A stretch of DNA of 43,359 nucleotides from Myxococcales bacterium (GTDB taxonomy: Bacteria > Myxococcota_A > Polyangia > Polyangiales > Polyangiaceae): NCBI GenBank assembly GCA_012514535.1, contig JAAZAA010000384.1, positions 1 through 43,359 of the forward strand, given 5' to 3'. The position numbers and the translations under genes were made by a program. Positions 1,146-37,061 of this stretch are shown piece after piece. The notes under the pieces were generated by a model. That model did not search any database. It had not been told where the DNA came from and saw only the letters and a list, made by a program, of their open reading frames with translations. How positions within the stretch are numbered: the first letter of the stretch is position 1; each line of letters begins with the position of its first letter.

Positions 1146-2371
1146 AGATGTTGAGGTCCCTGTTCGCGCCGGGCGCCCGCGTCGGGGCGATGGACGTGGT
1201 GCTCGCGGCGGTGGTGGTGGCGCTGATCGGCTTCGGCCTGGTCATGGTCTACAGCGCCAGCGTCGTCGAGGCGACGGCGGATTTCGGCAACCCCCACTAC
1301 TTCCTGCAACGCCACGGGGTGTTTGCGCTGCTGGCCCTCGCCGTCATGTTCGTGGCCTCGCGCTTCGACTACCACAAGCTGCGGCCGCTCACGTATCCGG
1401 TGCTGGGCCTGGTGACGCTGCTCATGGTGCTCAGCGTGGCGGGGTTCGGGCACACGGGTGGTGGAGCCGCGCGCTGGCTCCGTATCGGTCCGATCCACGT
1501 GCAGCCCTCCGAGGCCGCGAAGGTCGCCCTGGTGCTGTGGCTCGGCTACTCCTTGGACCGCAAGCGGGAGCGGGTGAAGACCTTCTCCATCGGCATGCTG
1601 CCGCACCTGCTCATGGCGGGCGTCCTGGTGCTCCTGTGCATGAAGCAGCCGGACTTCGGCGGCGCCGCCGTGTTGCTGTTCTTGACCTTCGCCATGCTGT
1701 TCGTGGCGGGCGCGCGGCTCGGGTATCTGCTGGGGGCGCTGATGCTGGGCGCGCTGTTCGCCACCTGGGCGATCCGCTTCACCCCCTATCGGTGGGAACG
1801 CATGCTGGCCTGGTCCAACATGGCGGAGCACCGGCAGGACCTCGCCTATCAGCCCTTCCAATCCGTGATGAGCTTCGGCTCCGGGGAGATCACCGGCCTC
1901 GGGCTGGGCAAGGGGCTGCAGGTCCTCTACCTCCCGGAGAGCCACACGGACTTCATCTCGGCGATCATCGGCGAGGAGCTCGGCTTCATCGGGATCTTGG
2001 GGTTGTGCGCCGTGTACCTGGTCATCGTGGCCCGCGGCGTCCGGGTCGCCCTGAGCGCCGAGGACGAGTACGGCTCCTACGTCGCCTTCGGGCTCTCCGT
2101 GTTGTTCGGAGTCCAGGCGCTCGTGAACATGTCCGTGGCGATGGCGGTGCTCCCGACGAAAGGCCTCACGCTCCCCTTCGTCAGCTACGGCGGATCGTCC
2201 CTGCTCGTGTCCGCGGCCGCCATGGGGATCCTCCTGAACATCTCACGCCCGCGCCTCGGCCCCGCGCCGCTGGCGGCGCCGTACACGGCCGCTCCCGAGG
2301 CCTCGGCCACGGTCCTGACCGAGTCGACCTTCGGCGACGGCGCCGATCCCGCGGAGGGGGCCCGAGCATGA
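1142..2371 (+). CDS. ftsW: Peptidoglycan glycosyltransferase FtsW (SEDS family)
   Basis: FtsW is the multi-pass inner-membrane SEDS protein that polymerises lipid II glycan strands at the division septum with a class B penicillin-binding protein. The 409 residues give about ten hydrophobic segments. SEDS signatures are visible: the ARWLRIG...QPSE loop near residue 112-123, [20 protein letters not shown] in the large extracytoplasmic loop, and [16 protein letters not shown] near the C-terminus. Its place between murD and murG is the classical dcw location of ftsW and favours it over its paralogue RodA. The ATG lies in a four-base ATGA overlap with murD, and its own stop overlaps the murG start the same way. 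The last ~40 residues are a low-complexity Ala/Pro tail. Confidence 0.96.
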
Positions 2372-3516
2372 GCGCGACCCTCGTCCTGGCTGGCGGCGGT
2401 ACCGGCGGGCACGTCTACCCGATGGTGGCCGTGGCCCACGCCTTGCGGCGGCTGCGGCCCGACGTGCGCCTCGTCTTCGTTGGCACCCAGCGCGGTATGG
2501 AGACCCGGGTCGTGCCCGAAGAGGGCTTCGAGCTCGAGCTCCTCGAGGTGCTCCCCATCCGCGGGGGCGGCCTCGCCGGAGTCGTGAAGGGCGTGGCCCG
2601 TGCCGCCCTCAGCTTGCCCGAGTCACGGGCGCTGCTGCGCCGGCTCGAGGCGCGGGCGGTGTTCTCGATCGGCGGCTACGCCGCCGGGCCCGTGTCTCTG
2701 GCGGCGCGCACGCTGGGCATCCCGCTGGCGTTGATGGAGCCGAACAGCATCATCGGGCTGGCGAATCAGCTGATCGCTCCCTTCGTGCAGCGCGCGTACA
2801 CCGCGTTCCGCATCACCGAGAGCCGCTTCGCGCCCGCGGTGGTCCTCGCCACCGGCGTGCCGCTGCGAGACGGCTTCGAGCCCCGGCCCTATCCGCCGCG
2901 GCGCGGACCGCTGCGGATCCTGGTCCTCGGGGGGAGCCAGGGGGCCAAGACGTTGAACGAGACGATCCCGGCGGCTTTGAGTCGCGTGCGCAGCCCCTTG
3001 CGGGTGGTGCACCAGTGCGGGCGCGCGCACGCCGATGCCGTCCGGGCCCGTTACGCGGAGCTCGGGGTGGATTTCGCAGAGGTCGTGCCCTTCATCGACG
3101 ACATGCCCGCAGCCCTCGCCGACGCGCAGCTGGTGGTGAGCCGCTCGGGGGCGGGCGCCGTGAGCGAGATCTGCGCCGTGGGGCGCCCGAGCCTGCTGGT
3201 GCCCTATCCGTTCGCCGCGGGTGACCACCAATGGGTGAACGCCGAGGCGCTCCAACAGGGGGGCGCCGCGGTCTGCCTGCGCGCGGAGGCGGCGACGGTG
3301 GAGCGCCTCACGGCGACGCTCGAAGGGATGCTCGAAGATCCCGCGACTCTCCCGCGCATGGCGGCGGCGGCGCGGCGGCTGGGCCGCCCCCACGCCGCAG
3401 AGACCATCGCCCGCGATTTCCTCGACCTGGCCGGCCTGGCGACGTCGAGCACACCAGGGGCCGGTTCGCCGCGGGAGCAGGGCGGAAGCGGCCAGCAGCC
3501 AGAGGAGATGACGTGA
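2368..3516 (+). CDS. murG: UDP-GlcNAc:lipid I N-acetylglucosaminyltransferase MurG
   Basis: MurG transfers GlcNAc from UDP-GlcNAc to lipid I on the cytoplasmic face of the membrane, making lipid II. The 382-residue protein starts [18 protein letters not shown], the hallmark glycine-rich MurG N-terminus. Later marks are [21 protein letters not shown], the second Rossmann glycine loop [14 protein letters not shown], and [11 protein letters not shown] with [10 protein letters not shown] in the nucleotide-sugar pocket. I chose the ATG at 2368 because it overlaps the ftsW stop as ATGA and begins exactly at the family N-terminus; the frame is open far upstream, but that part reads only as a shadow of ftsW. 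About 25 residues at the C-terminus are Gly/Ser/Gln-rich and unlikely to be structured. Confidence 0.97.
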
Positions 3517-4937
3517 TGTTCCGTGGGCGAGTTCGGCAGGTGCATTTCATCGGGGTCGGGGGGGTCGGCATGAGCGGTCTGGCGGAGATCCTCCGCACCC
3601 TCCAGTTCGACGTCTCCGGCTCCGACCTGCGCGACGGCGAGAACACCCGCAACCTGCGTCGCCTCGGGGTGCGTATCGACCTCGGGCACCGCGCGGACAA
3701 CGTCCACGGCGCCGACGTGGTCGTGTACTCGAGCGCGATTCAGTCCGAAAACCCGGAGATCCAGGAGGCGCGCGCCCTCGGCATCCCCGTGATCTCCCGA
3801 GCCGAAATGCTCGCGGAGCTGATGCGCCTGAAGTACGGCGTCGCCATCGCCGGTTCCCACGGGAAGACGACGACCACCTCCCTCGTGGCCACCGTGCTCC
3901 GGGCGGCGGGCTTCGATCCGACCGTGGTGGTGGGCGGTCGCATGGCGGCCCTCGGCAGCACCGCGCGGCTCGGCGCGGGCGACCTGCTGGTGGCCGAAGC
4001 GGACGAGAGCGACGGCTCGTTCCTCCGCCTCTCGCCCACGATCGCCGTGGTCACGAACATCGATCCCGAGCACCTCGATTTCTACGGGACCCACGAGCAG
4101 CTGAAGTCTGCGTTCGTCGAGTTCATCGAGAAGGTCCCGTTCTACGGGCTCGCCGTGCTCTGTCTGGACCACCCCGACGTGCAGGAGCTCCTGCCGCGGG
4201 TGCAGCGGCGTCACGTCACCTACGGGATCAGCCCCCAGGCGGACTACTCCGCCCGCGGCGTCCAGGTGCAGGGGGTGTCGACCAGCTTCGACGCGTTCCG
4301 CCGCGGGGAACCCCTGGGGCAGTTCACCGTGCGCATGCCGGGGCACCACAACGTGCTTAACACGTTGGCGGCCATCGCGGTGGCGGACGAGCTGGAGGTC
4401 CCCCTCGACGTCATGAAGACGGCGCTGGCGACGTTCCACGGCGTCGCGCGGCGCTTCTCCGTGGTCGACGTGGCCGAGGGGGTCGCCCTGGTCGACGACT
4501 ACGGCCACCACCCTGCGGAGATCCGGGCGACGCTCGCCGCCGCTCGGAGCGCCTACCAAAACAAGGTCCTGGTCGCCTTTCAGCCGCACCGGTACACGCG
4601 CACCCAGCACCTGTTCGACGACTTCGCGCGGGCGTTCAACGACGCGGACCTCGTGCTCCTCACGGACATCTACTCCGCGGGCGAGGCGCCGATCGAGGGC
4701 GTCGATTCGGAGCGCCTGGCAGAGGCCCTGCGCGCCCACGGTCACCACGGCGCGCGCTACGTGCCGGATCGGGACGAGCTGGTGCGGCAGCTGGGGGCGG
4801 CGGCGAGCGCCGGGGACGTGGTGATCGCCCTGGGCGCGGGAGACATCAACCGCATCCTCGGCACGGTGGGCGCGGACATTCGCAACCGCGCGCTGCAGCA
4901 AGGGGGCGAGAAACAGGGGGGAGGGCAGGGATCGTGA
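3516..4937 (+). CDS. murC: UDP-N-acetylmuramate--L-alanine ligase MurC
   Basis: MurC joins L-alanine to UDP-MurNAc with ATP, the first amino-acid step of the peptidoglycan stem peptide. The 473 residues carry the N-terminal UDP-binding loop [17 protein letters not shown], the P-loop [30 protein letters not shown], and the C-terminal [11 protein letters not shown] and FQPHRYTRT motifs typical of MurC rather than MurD/E/F. The ATG at 3516 shares one base with the murG stop (TGATG); a GTG one codon upstream is also possible. An AGAGGAGATG purine stretch inside the end of murG may serve as its ribosome binding site. It is followed directly by ftsQ with a GTGA overlap, leaving no room for murB or ddl. 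Confidence 0.97.
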
Positions 4938-19783: not shown

Positions 19784-22039
19784 TCACAGCGTCGTGGTGA
19801 GGCGGGGCTCCTGGCGCGACGGCAACCAGGCCGAGGCGATGAGCCCGCCGCCCTCCCGGTTCGCCAGGGTGAGCCGCCCGCGGTGGGCTTCGACGATCTC
19901 CCGGGCCAGGGCCAGGCCGACTCCGGTCCCGGTGCGTTTGGTAGAGTAGAACGGCAGCGTCGCTTGCTCGAGCACGGCGCTGCTCATGCCCGTGCCGCGA
20001 TCCATCACGTCCACGCGCGTGCCATCCCCTTCGTCGACGACGCGCAAGCGCACCTCCCGCGCCGGACCACCCGCCTCGTGGGCGTTCTTGAGCAGGTTGA
20101 GGAGGACCCGCTCCATCTGCGCCGGATCGAAGTAACCCGGGCGCGTCGGGAGCTCCCCCTCGAGCTGGACCTCGATCTGCGCGCGGATCCCCTCGATGAA
20201 GTGCCCCCAATCGACGTCCTGACGTGTGGGGCGCGGCAGGCGCGCGACGCTCCGGTAGCTCTCGAGGAAGGTGAGCAGGTGTTGGGTCCGCTCGGAGATC
20301 GTCGTGAAGATCCTGTCGAGCTGCTCCCGGCGATCGGTGCTCGCCGCCAAGGTGCGCGCGGAGGAGACGAGGGAGGTGATCGGCGCCAAGGAGTTGTTCA
20401 GCTCGTGGCTCAGCACGCGGATCAGCTTCTTCCAGTGCTCGACCTCTTGTCGACGCAGCTCCTGGGTGACGGGGCGCAGCATGTAGAGCGCGTGCAGGCG
20501 GCCCTCGATGGTGAGCTCGCGCATGCTGACGAGCAGGGTGTCGCCGACCCCGTCTTCGCCCTGCGCCACGACCGTGTCCTGGCCGTCGATGAGGGCCTCG
20601 CGGAGCTCGGGCGACAGCTCGGCGAAGACGTCCGTGACGTGGGCGCCCTCGAGGGAGCGAGAGGTCTTGAGGAGGCGCGCGGCGGCGGGGTTGGCGTAGA
20701 CGACCCGCAGACGATCGTTGACGAAGAGAACGGCGGCCGGGTCCGTCTCCATCGCCGCCGAGAGGGGCTGCAGCGAGCGCGCGAGGCGGTCCAGTCTGCG
20801 TGAGACGAGCAGCGACTGGCGACGCAGGCGCAGCGTCCACTGGCCGAGGAGCGCGAAGCCGATGGTGGCGATGAGCATCAACGCCACGAGGAGGAGCGCG
20901 GCCTTGCGCACCATCAACGTGGAGGCGAAGGCGTCCGAGGCGGACACCTCGGCGGCCACCCCGATGTCGTAGTCTTCCAGCCACGTCCAGGCGCCGACCA
21001 CCTCACGACCCAGGTAGTTGCGGTAGCCCTCCACGTTCGACCCCGAACGGCCCGAGGTGGCCTCCCGGGCCATCAGGGTCAGCGGTCGATCGGCGGGCGG
21101 CCGCGCTCCGCCGTCGCGGGCGTCGGCGGGCCCACCGGGATCGACGAGCCGCAGCTGCAGGGCGGTGTGGTCGATCCCCTCGGGGAGCAGACCGGCGCGG
21201 ACCACGTCCGCGGTGAAGCGACTCTCCGTGAGCATGAGCCCATCGCGGTTGAACGCGTACACCTCGCCGGTCTCACCCCAGGTTCCCTCCCCGAACTGCC
21301 GGGCGAGCCGGCGGGGATCGAAGGACAGTAAGAGCGCGGAGCCGGGGCGCGTGGGCAGGCGCGCCGCCGCGAGCACGTAGCGCCGGAGGGGAGCTTCCTC
21401 CGGGACCGCGAAGACGGGGGGGACGGGGCCTGTGCTCGTGCTCTCGGCGTGCGCGAGCCCCTCGATCGCCGGGTGTGTGCTCAGGTCACGTCCCAGGGTG
21501 GAGGGAGCCGAGCTCTCCAAGACGATGCCATCGGCGCTGACCAGGAAGTAGTGCTCGAAGGCCCCCGCCTGGCGCAGGGCGCTCATCCGCGCGGCGAAGG
21601 CGCTCTCCTGGTCAGCGGCGCCGTCGGCCCGGAGCACCATCGTGGCGGCCTCCACGATGGGCGCGGAATCCGCCAGATCCCGCGCCATCGTCTGACGTCC
21701 TTGGAGCCACGTGCGCGCCACGCGCACGTTCGCGTCGAGGATGGCCTCGAGTTGCTCGTGCATGCCGAGGCGCAGGCGCTGATCGACGGCGTCGTAGGTG
21801 AGCCAGCTGATGACGGCGAAGGTCGTCAGCAGCGTCACCGCGAGGGCCGCTCGCGCGCGCCGAACGCGCCGAGGCTCTCCCGTCGGGCCCTGGGGCCCGT
21901 AGGAGCCGATCAGGGTGTCGTAGCCGTACTCCGGTGGGCCTGGCCCCCCCCGTGGCGCCCCCGTCGGCGCTCCCCGCGGCATGTCCCCCCCGCGATCGCC
22001 GTCGTGATCCGCGCGCGCAGGCCCTGGCGTCGTGGTCAT
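19784..22039 (-). CDS. Membrane sensor histidine kinase (PAS, NtrY-like)
   Basis: This 751-residue sensor autophosphorylates and would pass phosphate to the response regulator encoded just upstream. A Gly/Pro-rich cytoplasmic leader (~60 residues) precedes a transmembrane helix at ~63-82. A ~290-residue periplasmic sensor region of the Cache kind follows, then a second transmembrane helix near 385-402 and a PAS domain (AVLFVNDRLRVVYANPAAARLL). The HisKA box is LSHELNNSLAPI, as in NtrY-like kinases. The ATPase domain has NLLKNAHEAGG, DRGTGM and YSTKRTGTGVGLALA. The start codon overlaps the regulator stop as ATGA, so the pair is translationally coupled. The long leader is unusual. The sensed signal cannot be read from sequence. 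Confidence 0.93.
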   Translation of the reverse strand: MTTTPGPARADHDGDRGGDMPRGAPTGAPRGGPGPPEYGYDTLIGSYGPQGPTGEPRRVRRARAALAVTLLTTFAVISWLTYDAVDQRLRLGMHEQLEAILDANVRVARTWLQGRQTMARDLADSAPIVEAATMVLRADGAADQESAFAARMSALRQAGAFEHYFLVSADGIVLESSAPSTLGRDLSTHPAIEGLAHAESTSTGPVPPVFAVPEEAPLRRYVLAAARLPTRPGSALLLSFDPRRLARQFGEGTWGETGEVYAFNRDGLMLTESRFTADVVRAGLLPEGIDHTALQLRLVDPGGPADARDGGARPPADRPLTLMAREATSGRSGSNVEGYRNYLGREVVGAWTWLEDYDIGVAAEVSASDAFASTLMVRKAALLLVALMLIATIGFALLGQWTLRLRRQSLLVSRRLDRLARSLQPLSAAMETDPAAVLFVNDRLRVVYANPAAARLLKTSRSLEGAHVTDVFAELSPELREALIDGQDTVVAQGEDGVGDTLLVSMRELTIEGRLHALYMLRPVTQELRRQEVEHWKKLIRVLSHELNNSLAPITSLVSSARTLAASTDRREQLDRIFTTISERTQHLLTFLESYRSVARLPRPTRQDVDWGHFIEGIRAQIEVQLEGELPTRPGYFDPAQMERVLLNLLKNAHEAGGPAREVRLRVVDEGDGTRVDVMDRGTGMSSAVLEQATLPFYSTKRTGTGVGLALAREIVEAHRGRLTLANREGGGLIASAWLPSRQEPRLTTTL

Positions 22040-23466
22040 CCGCGGGAGGTCATCCGTCGTTCCACCGCGATGCCCAGGCGGCTCATCCGGCGGTACAGGG
22101 CTTGCCGGCTGAGCCCCAGCTCCGCGGCGGCCCGGCTGATCACCCCGCGCGCTGCGGCGAGGGCCTCCTCGATCTCGCGCTTCTCGGGATCGGAGCTCTC
22201 CTGGGCGGAGTCGCTGCCCGCTGGCGCGGGAACGTAGCGCTCGGGCCGATGCGGGGCGGCGGCTTCGTCGAGGCCGAGGTCATGGGCGCTGATGAGGGGG
22301 CCGGGGCCGATCAACGAGGCGCGCTGCATGCGGTTCTGCAGCTCGCGCACGTTGCCGGGCCACTCGTGGGCCATGAGGGCGTCCCGCGCTTCCTCGCTCA
22401 GCTGCTTGACGCGACCGTCAGGCCCCGGGAAGCGAGGCAGCATCCACTCGGCGAGGGGGAGGATGTCGTCCGGGCGATCCTTCAGCGGGGGCACGTGGAT
22501 CTCGATGACCGCGAGCCGGAAATAGAGGTCTTCTCGGAAGGTCCCCTGGCGGATGTCCGCCTTCAAATCGGCGTTGGTCGCGCTGATGATGCGGACGTCG
22601 CTCTGCTGGGTACGGTTGCTGCCCAGGCGCTCGAATTCCCCCGTCTGGAGGACTCGCAGCAGCTTCATCTGCCCCTTGGCGCTCAGGTTGCCGATCTCGT
22701 CGAGGAACAGCGTGCCCCCGTTCGCTTCTTCGAAGCGGCCCGCCCTCCGCGTCTTCGCGCCTGTATAAGCGCCGGGCTCCGCCCCGAAGAGCTCCGCCTC
22801 GAGGAGCTCGTCCGGCAGGCCTCCCGCGTTCACCGTGAGGAACGGTCGATCCCTCCGCCGGGAGTTCGCCTGGATGACCTGCGCGATCTTCTCCTTCCCC
22901 GCGCCGTTCGGGCCCGTGATCAGGATCGCCGCGTCGCTGGCGGCCACGTTCGTCGCCAGCGTCAACACCTGGTGCATCTGCGGGCTTGCGTAGACGATGC
23001 CGCACAGATCGTACGTCTCCGCCAGGCGACGTCGCGACCGATCGTCCTGGGCGCGGAGGCGTTTGTTCTCGAGGCGCAGTTGGCGCACGCGGAGGAGGCG
23101 TCGCACGCTGTTCACGAGCTTTTCGTCATCCCAGGGCTTGCCGAAGTAGTCCTCCGCGCCCTCCTTGACGAGCTGGACGGCGGACTCCAGGGACGTCCAG
23201 GCGGTCATCACCAGGACGGGCAGATCGGGGTCGTGCTCGTGGATGCGGCGGAACAGGTCGACCCCCTCCTGGCCGCTCGTGGTGTCCGCCGTGAAGTTCA
23301 TGTCCTGCAGAACCACACCGATGTTGTCGGTGCGGATCGCCGCGAGCGCCGCGCCGGGGCTGTGCACCGCGCGGGCAGGGATGCCGTGAACCTCGAACAA
23401 CACGCTCAGAGCGGTGCACACGGGCACCTGATCATCGACGATGAGGACCTTTGCCTGGTCCGCCAT
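22036..23466 (-). CDS. NtrC-family sigma-54-dependent response regulator
   Basis: This is a transcription activator of 476 residues. The N-terminal receiver has D11/D12, phosphoacceptor D55, T88 and K110. The AAA+ domain has Walker A GPNGAGKE (185-192), the sigma-54 contact loop GAYTGA (232-237, Tyr for the usual Phe), Walker B GTLFLDE (251-257) and REDLYFRL. The C-terminus is a Fis-type helix-turn-helix (ISRAAAELGLSRQALYRRM). A GGAGGAGG Shine-Dalgarno at 23471-23478 sets the ATG at 23466. It is coupled by ATGA overlap to the histidine kinase, forming an NtrX/NtrY-like pair, and lies 80 bases downstream of the M48 peptidase gene. Its targets are unknown; no -24/-12 site was seen just upstream. 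Confidence 0.95.
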   Translation of the reverse strand: MADQAKVLIVDDQVPVCTALSVLFEVHGIPARAVHSPGAALAAIRTDNIGVVLQDMNFTADTTSGQEGVDLFRRIHEHDPDLPVLVMTAWTSLESAVQLVKEGAEDYFGKPWDDEKLVNSVRRLLRVRQLRLENKRLRAQDDRSRRRLAETYDLCGIVYASPQMHQVLTLATNVAASDAAILITGPNGAGKEKIAQVIQANSRRRDRPFLTVNAGGLPDELLEAELFGAEPGAYTGAKTRRAGRFEEANGGTLFLDEIGNLSAKGQMKLLRVLQTGEFERLGSNRTQQSDVRIISATNADLKADIRQGTFREDLYFRLAVIEIHVPPLKDRPDDILPLAEWMLPRFPGPDGRVKQLSEEARDALMAHEWPGNVRELQNRMQRASLIGPGPLISAHDLGLDEAAAPHRPERYVPAPAGSDSAQESSDPEKREIEEALAAARGVISRAAAELGLSRQALYRRMSRLGIAVERRMTSRG

Positions 23467-34408: not shown

Positions 34409-35491
34409 TCAGTCCTGCGCCGCGGGGCGACGGAGTCTCTTCCTCTTGAGCATCTCCACGAGGGTGGTCCGATTGAGCCCGAGCAGGCGCGCGGCCTGCT
34501 GCTTGTTCCAGCTGGTGCGGTCCAGGGCCTCCTGAAGGAAGCGGCTCTCCAGGGCGTCGAGCGTCCGGCGAAGATCCATCCCCTCCAGGGGGAGCTCCAG
34601 GGAGAGGTGGGGTGGAGCCGTGAGCGCGCGCAGGTGGTTCGGGAGATCGGCGGGACGGATGGTCCTGCCTCGCGCGAGGGCGGCGGCGTGCTCCACGGCG
34701 TTGCGGAGCTCCGCGACGTTCCCGGGCCAAGGGTAGGAGAGCATCAGCTGCTCCGCTGCCGGGCTGAAGGGGCGGGCCCTGCCCGTGCGGGGCCGTGGGG
34801 CCGCGTCGACGGAGACGGCCGGGCGCGGGGTGGCGTGGAGGAACTCGCGGGCGAGCTCGAGGATGTCGTCGCCTCGCTCACGCAAGGGCGGGACGGCGCA
34901 GGACAGCACGCTCACCCGATAGAAGAAGTCCTGGCGCACGGACGGGTGGGCGCGCAGCTGCTCCACGCTCAGCTCCGAGGCGACGATCAGCCGGCAGGCG
35001 TCCGGGCGTTGGAATGCTTGGCCGAGCGCCTCTCCCAGCACGAGCTGCGCGGAGGGCGGCAGGCGGGTGAGCTCGCTGACGAACAAGGTCCCTGAGCCCG
35101 CGAGTTCGAGCCAACGCTCCGGTGAGGAGTCGATGGCCACGCGGTGCGCCCTCGCGTCGCCCGAACGCAGGGCGCTCGCCGCCACGTCGACGACGACGAA
35201 AGGTTGGTCGGGCGCGCCGCTCCGGTGCAGCGCGCGGGCGCAGGTGTGCTTCCCCGAGCCGTGGGGCCCCGTCAGGAGGACCGGGCAGGGGATGTCGACG
35301 ACGCGATCGAGCTCGCGGAAGACACGCAGCCAGACGTCGGCCGCCCCGACGACGCCCTGCATCGTTCGCGGACGCGCGGGGAGCGTCGAGGTGGCGTCGT
35401 CAGGGGCGCGGATCGATGTGGGCCGTCGGGTGGAGGTCGTGTCGTTCGACGGAGGGACCACCTCCGCAATCTGCTCGAGCTTCCCTGTCAT
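34409..35491 (-). CDS. AAA+ Fis-type transcription regulator lacking the GAFTGA loop
   Basis: This 360-residue protein is related to NtrC-type enhancer-binding proteins but diverged. A ~45-residue leader with no receiver precedes an AAA+ domain: Walker A GPHGSGKHT (75-83), Walker B position GTLFVSEL (135-142, the usual DE is SE), VRQDFFYRVSVLSC, and sensor II YPWPGNVAELRNAVEHA. The GAFTGA sigma-54 contact loop is absent: between Walker A and B only a short Arg/Asp stretch is present. The C-terminal Fis-HTH reads NKQQAARLLGLNRTTLVEMLKRKRL, very like FleQ/FlrC-type regulators. It is unlikely to activate sigma-54 polymerase and may instead repress or bind DNA as an ATP-sensing regulator. The start at 35491 is uncertain; the frame is open upstream to 35974 without recognisable sequence. 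Confidence 0.85.
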   Translation of the reverse strand: MTGKLEQIAEVVPPSNDTTSTRRPTSIRAPDDATSTLPARPRTMQGVVGAADVWLRVFRELDRVVDIPCPVLLTGPHGSGKHTCARALHRSGAPDQPFVVVDVAASALRSGDARAHRVAIDSSPERWLELAGSGTLFVSELTRLPPSAQLVLGEALGQAFQRPDACRLIVASELSVEQLRAHPSVRQDFFYRVSVLSCAVPPLRERGDDILELAREFLHATPRPAVSVDAAPRPRTGRARPFSPAAEQLMLSYPWPGNVAELRNAVEHAAALARGRTIRPADLPNHLRALTAPPHLSLELPLEGMDLRRTLDALESRFLQEALDRTSWNKQQAARLLGLNRTTLVEMLKRKRLRRPAAQD

Positions 35492-35972
35492 GACCCATCC
35501 ACGAGCCGACGTGCCTTCGCCGCCGCTGCCCGCCCGTCGCGGTGGAACGGTGCTCACGGGGGCGCGCGCGGGCTCGCGTTTCGAATCGAGAAGGAGTGCT
35601 GAATCGGAGGACGACGTTCTCGGGTGCTTCACCCTGAGCGCAGGGCAGCCGGCGTCCCCCGACGGCACAGGTGCAACCGTCACCGTCTCGACCTGAGAGC
35701 CGACGCAGCGGGCGACGGGGTGGTCGAGAGCTCGCAACGAGTTGATTTCGTAGGATACCGGCGGGAAGCGGAGCCCCGCGTGAGCCACGTCGTGTTTGGC
35801 ACTGCCCGTGCAGGTTGCCCAGGCGTCGAACGAGGAGCGGCGCACGTCTTCGCCGCCGCGCCAGGGAGGGAACGACTCACGGGACCGCGGGATGATCCGC
35901 AGTCTCGGTCGGGGATCCCATCCGAGAGGGGCCAGGGCGCGCGGGGGAGAACGGGGTGCCGATAAGGAGACC
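35492..35972. other. 481-base divergent region between AAA+ regulator and sigma factor
   Basis: Divergent genes flank this gap. It holds a strong -24/-12 element for the sigma factor at 35797-35812 and the AAGGAGA Shine-Dalgarno at 35964-35970. Open frames cross it on both strands, but none has a domain or signal I can recognise. The regulator encoded on the left may bind here to control both genes; no obvious inverted operator was found by eye. Confidence 0.5.
35797..35812 (+). promoter_or_regulatory. Sigma-54 (-24/-12) promoter candidate upstream of the sigma factor gene
   Basis: The sequence TGGCACTGCCCGTGCA matches the sigma-54 consensus TGGCAC-N5-TTGCA at all but one position, with GG (35798-35799) and GC (35810-35811) separated by ten bases as required. 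It lies 160 bases before the sigma-factor ATG and points toward it, so a ~150-base leader would be produced. The promoter call is from sequence alone. Confidence 0.6.
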
Positions 35973-37061
35973 ATGACGACACTTGCATGTCCTCAATCGC
36001 AGCGTTCCCCCGTCGAGCTTCGATCCACGCGAGGGACCGAAGCCCCGGCCCTGCCGGGACCCGATCCAAGAAGCTCGATTCCCGGCGGGACTGCTCCTGA
36101 CGCAGCGGTTCCCGGTCCGTCCGTTCCTGGTGCGGCCGTGTCCGAGGGGACCGTCTCGCGTGAACCCGTCTCCGGTGGACAGGGTCCGGTCGAGCGAGGT
36201 CCCGCAGGTGCGCTTCGGGAGGAGGTGACGAACGAGGCGGTCCCTGCCCCCTCGGGGCGTGCGATCACGACTGCCACGATCGGGGCAGAGCACGACGCCG
36301 CGAAGCCCGTCGAGCCGCCGAAGGCCGAGCGCCCGGAGCGCCTCGACTCGATGCGAGCCGATCGAGACACCTTCGCGCGCTATAGCCCGCTCGTCCGTCG
36401 AATCGCCCTGAGGAGCGTGCGCACCCTGCCTCGCACCTTGACGGTGGACGACATCGTCTCGGCCGGCTGGGTCGGCATGGCGGAAGCCATTCGGCGGCGG
36501 CCCGAGGGCATGCCGGAGGAACAGTTCGAGGCCTACGCTTCGTACCGGATCCGGGGCGCCATCCTCGATTACTTGCGGGCTCTCGATCCCTTGTCGCGGA
36601 AGCTCCGCAACGCAGCGCGGCGCATCACCGCGGCCACGCGGGCCCTGACGCAGGAGCTCGGCCGAACCCCGCGGGACGAGGAGATCGCGCGCAAGCTGGA
36701 GATGCCGATGGCGGAGTATCAGCAGACCCTCCTCGACATCCAGGACGCCGGCTTCGATCGCGTCGACGGAGCGGGCCCCCTCGAGCCGCAGGCGACGAGC
36801 CCGTCTCCCGAGGCGCTGGCGACGAAGAGCGAGCTCGTGGGGAACGTGGCGGGTGCGGTCGAGGAGCTCCCCGAGCGCCTGCAGATCGTGCTGGGGCTCC
36901 ATTACCAGCAGGAGTGCAGCCTCCGGGAGATCGGGGAAATCCTGGGGGTGACCGAGTCGCGTGTCTGTCAGCTCCACGCGGAGGCGCTCCAGCGGCTGCG
37001 CACGCGCCTGGACGGCAAGACGCTGCCGAGCGGCCGCCGGCGCCGCTCGACGTCGAGCTGA
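35973..37061 (+). CDS. FliA/WhiG-family RNA polymerase sigma factor (sigma-28 type)
   Basis: This is a 362-residue sigma factor of the flagellar/sporulation FliA/WhiG group. Residues ~1-125 are a disordered, Pro/Gly/Val-rich leader with repeated PG-x-x-V units, which the usual ~240-residue family lacks. Sigma region 2 starts at FARYSPLVRRIALRS (135-149), with DDIVSAGWVGMAEAI and YASYRIRGAILDYLRALDP; region 3 is around 210-260 (LGRTPRDEEIARKL) and region 4 at 300-345 (LPERLQIVLGLHYQQECSLREIGEILGVTESRVCQL). The ATG is set by an AAGGAGA Shine-Dalgarno (35964-35970), two bases before it. No flagellar genes are in the window, so the regulon is unknown. Divergent from the GAFTGA-less AAA+ regulator and preceded by a sigma-54 promoter match. 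Confidence 0.9.
   Translation: MTTLACPQSQRSPVELRSTRGTEAPALPGPDPRSSIPGGTAPDAAVPGPSVPGAAVSEGTVSREPVSGGQGPVERGPAGALREEVTNEAVPAPSGRAITTATIGAEHDAAKPVEPPKAERPERLDSMRADRDTFARYSPLVRRIALRSVRTLPRTLTVDDIVSAGWVGMAEAIRRRPEGMPEEQFEAYASYRIRGAILDYLRALDPLSRKLRNAARRITAATRALTQELGRTPRDEEIARKLEMPMAEYQQTLLDIQDAGFDRVDGAGPLEPQATSPSPEALATKSELVGNVAGAVEELPERLQIVLGLHYQQECSLREIGEILGVTESRVCQLHAEALQRLRTRLDGKTLPSGRRRRSTSS

Follow-up and report, generated by a model that had tools for sequence, protein, structure and literature searches.

The 43,359-nucleotide stretch of DNA analysed here (the window) encodes a regulator of the NtrC/FleQ type that carries no GAFTGA motif, and the locus raises the question of where such a protein came from and what it can still do. 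The reading frame is intact and was taken to start with the ATG at position 35491, because the upstream stretch added by a longer frame running up to 35974 displays a weaker and mixed codon-position bias; third-position GC of the ORF is normal. Four Pfam families match above their cut-offs, i.e. Sigma54_activ_2, AAA_lid_14, Sigma54_activat (weakly, 56 bits) and HTH_8, and no receiver domain was matched in the protein. Both an AAA+ fold and a Fis-type HTH are thus present according to Pfam, an AlphaFold model and fold matches (Table 1).

Table 1. Positions of the features discussed, in window coordinates (residue numbers refer to the regulator)
Feature	Position	Strand	Basis
GAFTGA-less, receiver-less NtrC/FleQ-like AAA+ regulator, 360 aa	34409..35491	-	ORF, codon-position GC, Pfam, clade, model
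Fis-type HTH, residues 311-354	34430..34561	-	Pfam, alignment
Sensor II WPGNVAEL, residues 255-262, Arg to Ala	34706..34729	-	Alignment
Arginine-finger motif RQDFFYR, residues 186-192, both Arg kept	34916..34936	-	Alignment
Sensor I, residues 171-173, ATN to ASE	34973..34981	-	Alignment
Place of loop L2, around residues 162-167	34991..35008	-	About 7-8 residues shorter than family
Walker B LFVSE, residues 136-140, Asp to Ser	35072..35086	-	Alignment
Place of loop L1, residues 103-120	35132..35185	-	GAFTGA and six other invariant family residues absent
Walker A GPHGSGKH, residues 75-82, kept	35246..35269	-	Alignment
Divergent intergenic region, 481 bp	35492..35972	.	No family-type upstream site above 7/10
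Sigma-54-type -24/-12 element TGGCACTGCCCGTGCA upstream of sigma gene	35797..35812	+	Motif score
FliA/WhiG-family sigma factor	35973..37061	+	Above two NCBIfam cut-offs; clade with syntenic G001 and G002 copies

The protein contains no GAFTGA-like string, and neither does any of the three minus-strand frames when read across the interval from Walker A to Walker B; a motif hidden by misalignment or by a compensated frameshift is thus excluded. The absence originally reported is thereby confirmed, and the region is 7 residues shorter: the Walker A lysine and the Walker B glutamate are separated by 59 residues, as compared to 66 in all 30 canonical relatives. Likewise, the distance from Walker B to the arginine-finger motif is 45 residues against a family mode of 52. 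Since both spacings are shorter, two loops have been shortened, L1 with its GAFTGA motif and L2, the pre-sensor I loop that takes part in sigma-54 contact. A shortened loop was seen in none of the 84 relatives to which the window protein was aligned (85 loci were given, one of which was not recovered). Similarly, no second GAFTGA-less orthologue was seen among 108 genomes of the family at E ≤ 1e-45, the loop being read in aligned loci and not in every match, nor in 40 GTDB loci; the degenerate form was observed in one genome only. Two other proteins deserve mention. In a relative from the same order (L033, G057:C72) the L1 region is of full length, without a GAFTGA-like sequence and with Walker B intact, and a bEBP-like protein of the window genome (L245, G000:C249, ORF 1838-4612 +) has GGSSDA in place of GAFTGA and an intact LFLDE.

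The nucleotide site is altered as well. In the alignment with 30 relatives the Walker A sequence GPHGSGKHT is found as first described, with its glycine and lysine kept, as are R186 and R192 (the arginine-finger and sensor II residues are those that we assign by analogy with PspF). The SE reported in place of DE in Walker B is also genuine, the motif reading FVSE. Sensor II, listed as present in the initial annotation, keeps WPGNV, but its arginine, invariant in 30/30 relatives, is an alanine (R260A); this change and that of sensor I from TN to SE, with glutamate for asparagine, had been overlooked. Overall, 47 of the 115 columns that are invariant in the 30 canonical relatives are altered. 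Judging from the residues concerned, ATP hydrolysis is predicted to have been lost, and the retained Walker A and arginine-finger motifs are consistent with the nucleotide sensing proposed earlier. The AlphaFold model, built from 28 sequences, has a mean pLDDT of 80.4 with a well-predicted AAA+ core and HTH, and values below 50 at residues 106-111, the expected position of L1. It matches NtrC1 (Z 21.6, rmsd 2.6, 218 aligned) and VpsR (7v2b; Z 20.6, rmsd 2.7, 219 aligned); the fold matches, all with Z of about 20-22, comprise VpsR and activators of sigma-54. Their ranks are nearly tied, and the structure comparison excludes no family. Alignment with relatives and structure modelling, two of the checks originally proposed, gave a lost sigma-54 interface and a kept AAA+ fold, respectively.

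Among the genomes compared, the nearest relatives of the window protein are receiver-less regulators with 38-44% identity, and those whose surroundings were inspected sit in flagellar clusters, beside fliG, flagellin and rod genes; in the same-genus genome G001 the regulator shares one contig with fliG, rod, flagellin and FliA genes. The window protein resembles these family regulators (G001:C70, G034:C70, G024:C54 and others) in clade, in size (about 340-480 aa) and in the HTH sequence NKxxAARLLGLNRTTLVEMLKRKR, common to it and to the receiver-less flagellar regulators of the family. Unlike the window protein, they carry GAFTGA or GSFTGA in L1, as well as L2, FLDE, ATN and the sensor II arginine, and the examined ones lie in flagellar clusters. 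In a tree calculated without both loop regions, the window protein falls inside a clade of flagellar-cluster regulators (35 rows, support 99/93), with a terminal branch of 4.17, the median being 0.26; a quick tree gave 2.48 against 0.31. The placement is unsure because this branch is very long, and in the AU test neither a grouping with the regulators of the two congeners (p 0.296) nor one with the core set (p 0.302) was rejected. At the level of sequence, the comparison indicates descent from a receiver-less FleQ/FlrC/FlbD-type sigma-54 activator of the family's flagellar cluster, and the FleQ/FlrC-like ancestry put forward before is borne out by the flagellar setting of the relatives.

The window genome itself (G000, 98.8% complete) gave no match to FliG_C, Flagellin_N or Flg_bb_rod, and its flagellar genes appear to have been lost; it has one RpoN and 28 other strong bEBPs. 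Across the 108 genomes of the family, FliG_C was found in 52 (weakly in G080), the regulator in 38 (E ≤ 1e-45, window query) and the sigma factor in 50 (E ≤ 1e-55). FliG is present in 33 of the 38 genomes with the regulator; the others are G000, G002, G008, G023 and G075, and completeness is no more than 88-89% in G002, G023 and G075. Flagellin and rod matches occur in G002 despite the missing FliG; in G008 there are two rod matches, along with fragments of flagellin of which some contain stops. The flagellar cluster of G008 (L044 and L123, G008:C108) is apparently decaying, yet keeps a regulator with GAFTGA and a FliA gene.

With flagella lost and selection relaxed, the window protein could be a dying remnant without function, whose HTH survives by chance or because the loss is recent. 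The missing flagellar markers, the very long branch, the damage to several functional motifs, the restriction to one genome and the parallel of G008, with its decaying cluster and a flagellin containing a stop, all lend themselves to this explanation, which nevertheless appears rather unlikely in view of an intact 360-codon ORF of normal third-position GC and AAA+ and HTH folds that are still well predicted. More specifically, the recognition segment (residues 331-354) is 88% identical to the family consensus, equal to the family median of 88% and hence as conserved as in canonical members, whereas the AAA+ segments from Walker A to the arginine finger reach only 24-55% identity against family medians of 83-95%. 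The protein matches 18/20 core positions of the family recognition helix; the 28 other strong bEBP-like proteins encoded in the genome reach 12/20 at best (29 compared including the window protein, one being truncated at the end of a contig). When the gene of a relative was allowed to decay neutrally to 47% identity in simulations that left out indels, the ORF stayed free of stops in just 6 of 200 runs. Fast evolution together with a recognition helix at the family level makes neutral decay unlikely. In combination, the retained HTH match, predicted fold and ORF point to selection on DNA binding and on the fold, without sigma-54 remodelling.

The observation is real and coherent, and the regulator is probably functional. 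The reading that we prefer, and to which we assign a probability of roughly one half, is that a flagellar regulator has turned into a DNA- and ATP-binding regulator outside sigma-54, likely a repressor or antagonist or a regulator of sigma-70-type promoters. From the parts lost and kept, we infer its oligomeric form, DNA target and sign of regulation as follows. The flagellar genes would have gone from the lineage and the regulator remained. Missing from it are the two loops that contact sigma-54 (L2, and L1 with its GAFTGA motif), as well as the side chains on which ATP hydrolysis depends, namely the aspartate of Walker B, the asparagine of sensor I and the arginine of sensor II. Its P-loop and arginine-finger motif are still in place, as are the recognition helix and the fold of the AAA+ domain. 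Such a protein could bind ATP to assemble, and could bind its old operator. Unable to remodel the sigma-54 polymerase, it would sit on DNA as a repressor or antagonist, or else regulate promoters of the sigma-70 type as TyrR, VpsR and Caulobacter NtrC do.

A DNA target was sought in the upstream regions of canonical regulators. Sigma-54-type elements scoring at least 10/12 occur in 27 of 29 such regions, on the regulator's own strand in 20 and on the divergent strand in 23. Dyad counting retrieved GGTC-N6-GACC in 11 of 22 regions, with 0.3 expected and 7-9 for the top dyad in ten shuffled sets; the 22 are the 29 regions minus six near-duplicate or listed ones and minus those of ≤ 400 bp. The resulting palindrome, GGGTC-N6-GACCC (the family-associated site), is present at 9/10 or better in 17/29 regions. 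The exact full palindrome is absent from the window genome and occurs at least once in 37/108 family genomes, but with an estimated background of about one per genome this count carries no weight. An enriched word, CTCGACTACC, was discarded as a regulatory site, as it resembles coding sequence of a divergent flagellar gene, which we take to be flgB. Searches with the E. coli-type sigma-28 consensus, allowing ≤ 2 mismatches, found no promoter in the window, nor did they at the flagellin loci of relatives, of which four were scanned; matching nowhere tried, this consensus is unusable for regulon prediction. Just before the sigma start codon, GCCGATAA (35949-35972) resembles the -10 part of a sigma-28 promoter; no matching -35 part was found, and the sequence overlaps a plausible ribosome-binding site.

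The neighbouring gene, divergent from the regulator as first noted, scores above two NCBIfam cut-offs for a FliA/WhiG-type sigma factor and falls into one clade with its syntenic counterparts in the same-genus genomes G001 and G002 (SH-aLRT 99). That the window protein is a local, dedicated repressor of this gene is suggested by the divergent arrangement of the two genes, 481 bp apart, and by the sigma-54-type elements upstream of the canonical copies on one or both strands. The sigma gene itself has evolved normally (end branch 0.44, median 0.46) and is preceded by a -24/-12 element at 10/12 positions in the window, 10/12 in G001 and 9/12 in G002, scores reached by 6/200, 3/200 and 26/200 shuffles, respectively. 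Moreover, three family-associated sites precede the equivalent gene of G001 (0/2000 shuffles). We nevertheless consider dedicated repression unlikely, given that the regulator adjoins a sigma gene in one of 33 sigma loci (1.5-kb flanks), the window itself, and that the best family-site score in the window's intergenic region is 7/10, reached by all 500 shuffles; upstream of the G002 sigma gene no such site scores 8/10 or better. No sigma-54 element of at least 9/12 faces the regulator in the intergenic region of the window. The order GGT-sigma-HAD is common to the window and both same-genus genomes, where the sigma-HAD gap (598 bp in G001 and 582 bp in G002) contains neither a regulator nor a remnant of one (E ≥ 1.4); in G008, G024 and G011 a regulator lies within about 3-8 kb of the sigma gene. 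Thus, of the proposal that the protein acts independently of sigma-54 on its neighbour, the first part agrees with the lost interface, and the second finds no backing in the empty congener gap and the background-level site. The window protein may still control the adjacent gene. Elsewhere in the window, a response-regulator bEBP with GAYTGA (22039-23466, -) and a histidine kinase (19787-22039, -) are syntenic in G001 (72% and 55% identity), the former being found in G002 also. This GAYTGA protein could be what activates the sigma-54-type promoter conserved upstream of the sigma gene.

The window genome holds a second FliA/WhiG-like sigma gene on contig C300 (L071/L252, G000:C300, about 624-1448). 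Upstream of it are family-associated sites of 10/10 and 9/10 with an 11/12 sigma-54 element close by, and no other 10/10 site turned up in the 184 kb scanned from this genome (some overlapping loci counted). All 16 examined loci of this type of sigma gene have a site of at least 9/10, and 9/16 a sigma-54 element of at least 10/12, with the provision that 11 of the 16 were fetched by exact-site search and the other five alone are unbiased. In G073 and G108-G114 the site precedes the C300-type sigma gene, and neither FliG nor the regulator (E ≤ 1e-45) was found; another protein can therefore read the site. The window protein as the only reader of GGGTC-N6-GACCC was dropped for this reason, and the palindrome is kept as a candidate operator, without a claim that this is proven.

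A role within sigma-54 activation, albeit indirect, would be to tether mixed rings to DNA, the other subunits being supplied by a bEBP from this genome that does bear GAFTGA. Mixed rings are formed by HrpR and HrpS. The retained P-loop and arginine-finger motif would permit such an arrangement, the C300 sigma gene keeps its sites and sigma-54 element, and no other strong bEBP of the genome has the family helix. Still, this possibility seems very improbable, as the C300-type site in genomes without the regulator implies a different reader and no partner was identified. One candidate, the bEBP of C142, was considered as an HTH-less partner and turned out to carry an HTH; another bEBP of the window genome, C100, has no clear HTH. 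HrpR and HrpS are described as two activators of one promoter system, and both keep the motif, as GAFTGA and GAYTGA (PMC8657755). A broader scenario, in which the flagellar master activator has outlived the flagellum and, having lost both sigma-54-contact loops together with ATP hydrolysis, now serves as a DNA-bound brake or tether on a leftover sigma-54/sigma-28 circuit, made up of two FliA-like sigma genes with sigma-54-type promoters in a genome devoid of flagellar markers, is speculative and in our estimate improbable.

By functional analogy, the window protein may correspond to a sigma-70 regulator of the TyrR or VpsR kind, acting at sigma-70-type promoters without ATP hydrolysis. VpsR, TyrR, DhaR and HupR have N-terminal domains and ligands other than those of the window protein, and VpsR is far from it in sequence (E 4.6e-18). 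TyrR, DhaR and HupR have lost the link to sigma-54, and VpsR and YplP probably so (PMC3162934). Among these bEBP paralogues, VpsR has an AAA+ fold comparable to that of the window protein. A parallel in the loop is Caulobacter crescentus NtrC, in which eight residues of L1 including GAFTGA are deleted and whose authors conclude that it regulates sigma-70-dependent promoters by activation and repression; the paper also names a V. cholerae regulator and the NtrC of Rhodobacter capsulatus as comparable cases (PMC10274813). The Caulobacter and R. capsulatus proteins share the deletion of L1 with the window protein, but differ in having a phosphorylated receiver and in being nitrogen regulators, not flagellar in origin. 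Pseudomonas aeruginosa FleQ is, like the window protein, a flagellar bEBP with a Fis-type HTH, although it keeps the GAFTGA loops that the window protein does not; its binding sequence is GTCAAT-N2-ATTGAC, and its action at sigma-70 promoters requires no hydrolysis of ATP (PMC10723142). Compared with the GTCAAT/ATTGAC arms of that site, those of the family-linked site GGGTCA-N4-TGACCC are closer together. In a Lysobacter that has no flagella, an introduced FleQ binds the promoter of a biosynthesis locus and reduces the production of an antifungal, so that a flagellar regulator can matter without flagella (PMC9927559).

A partial survey of the literature yielded no description of a GAFTGA-less flagellar-type regulator. 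The transition from an activator to a GAFTGA-less form is rarely visible, and here a single genus allows the altered protein to be set against its likely ancestor state, represented by the GAFTGA copies of the congeners with their candidate site and promoters, and against the apparent loss of the regulated organelle. The system could also show what role a FliA-type sigma factor and a sigma-54-type promoter have after the loss of flagella. Set beside the regulators above, GAFTGA-less bEBPs are known in kind, and it is the lineage and the context that are new.
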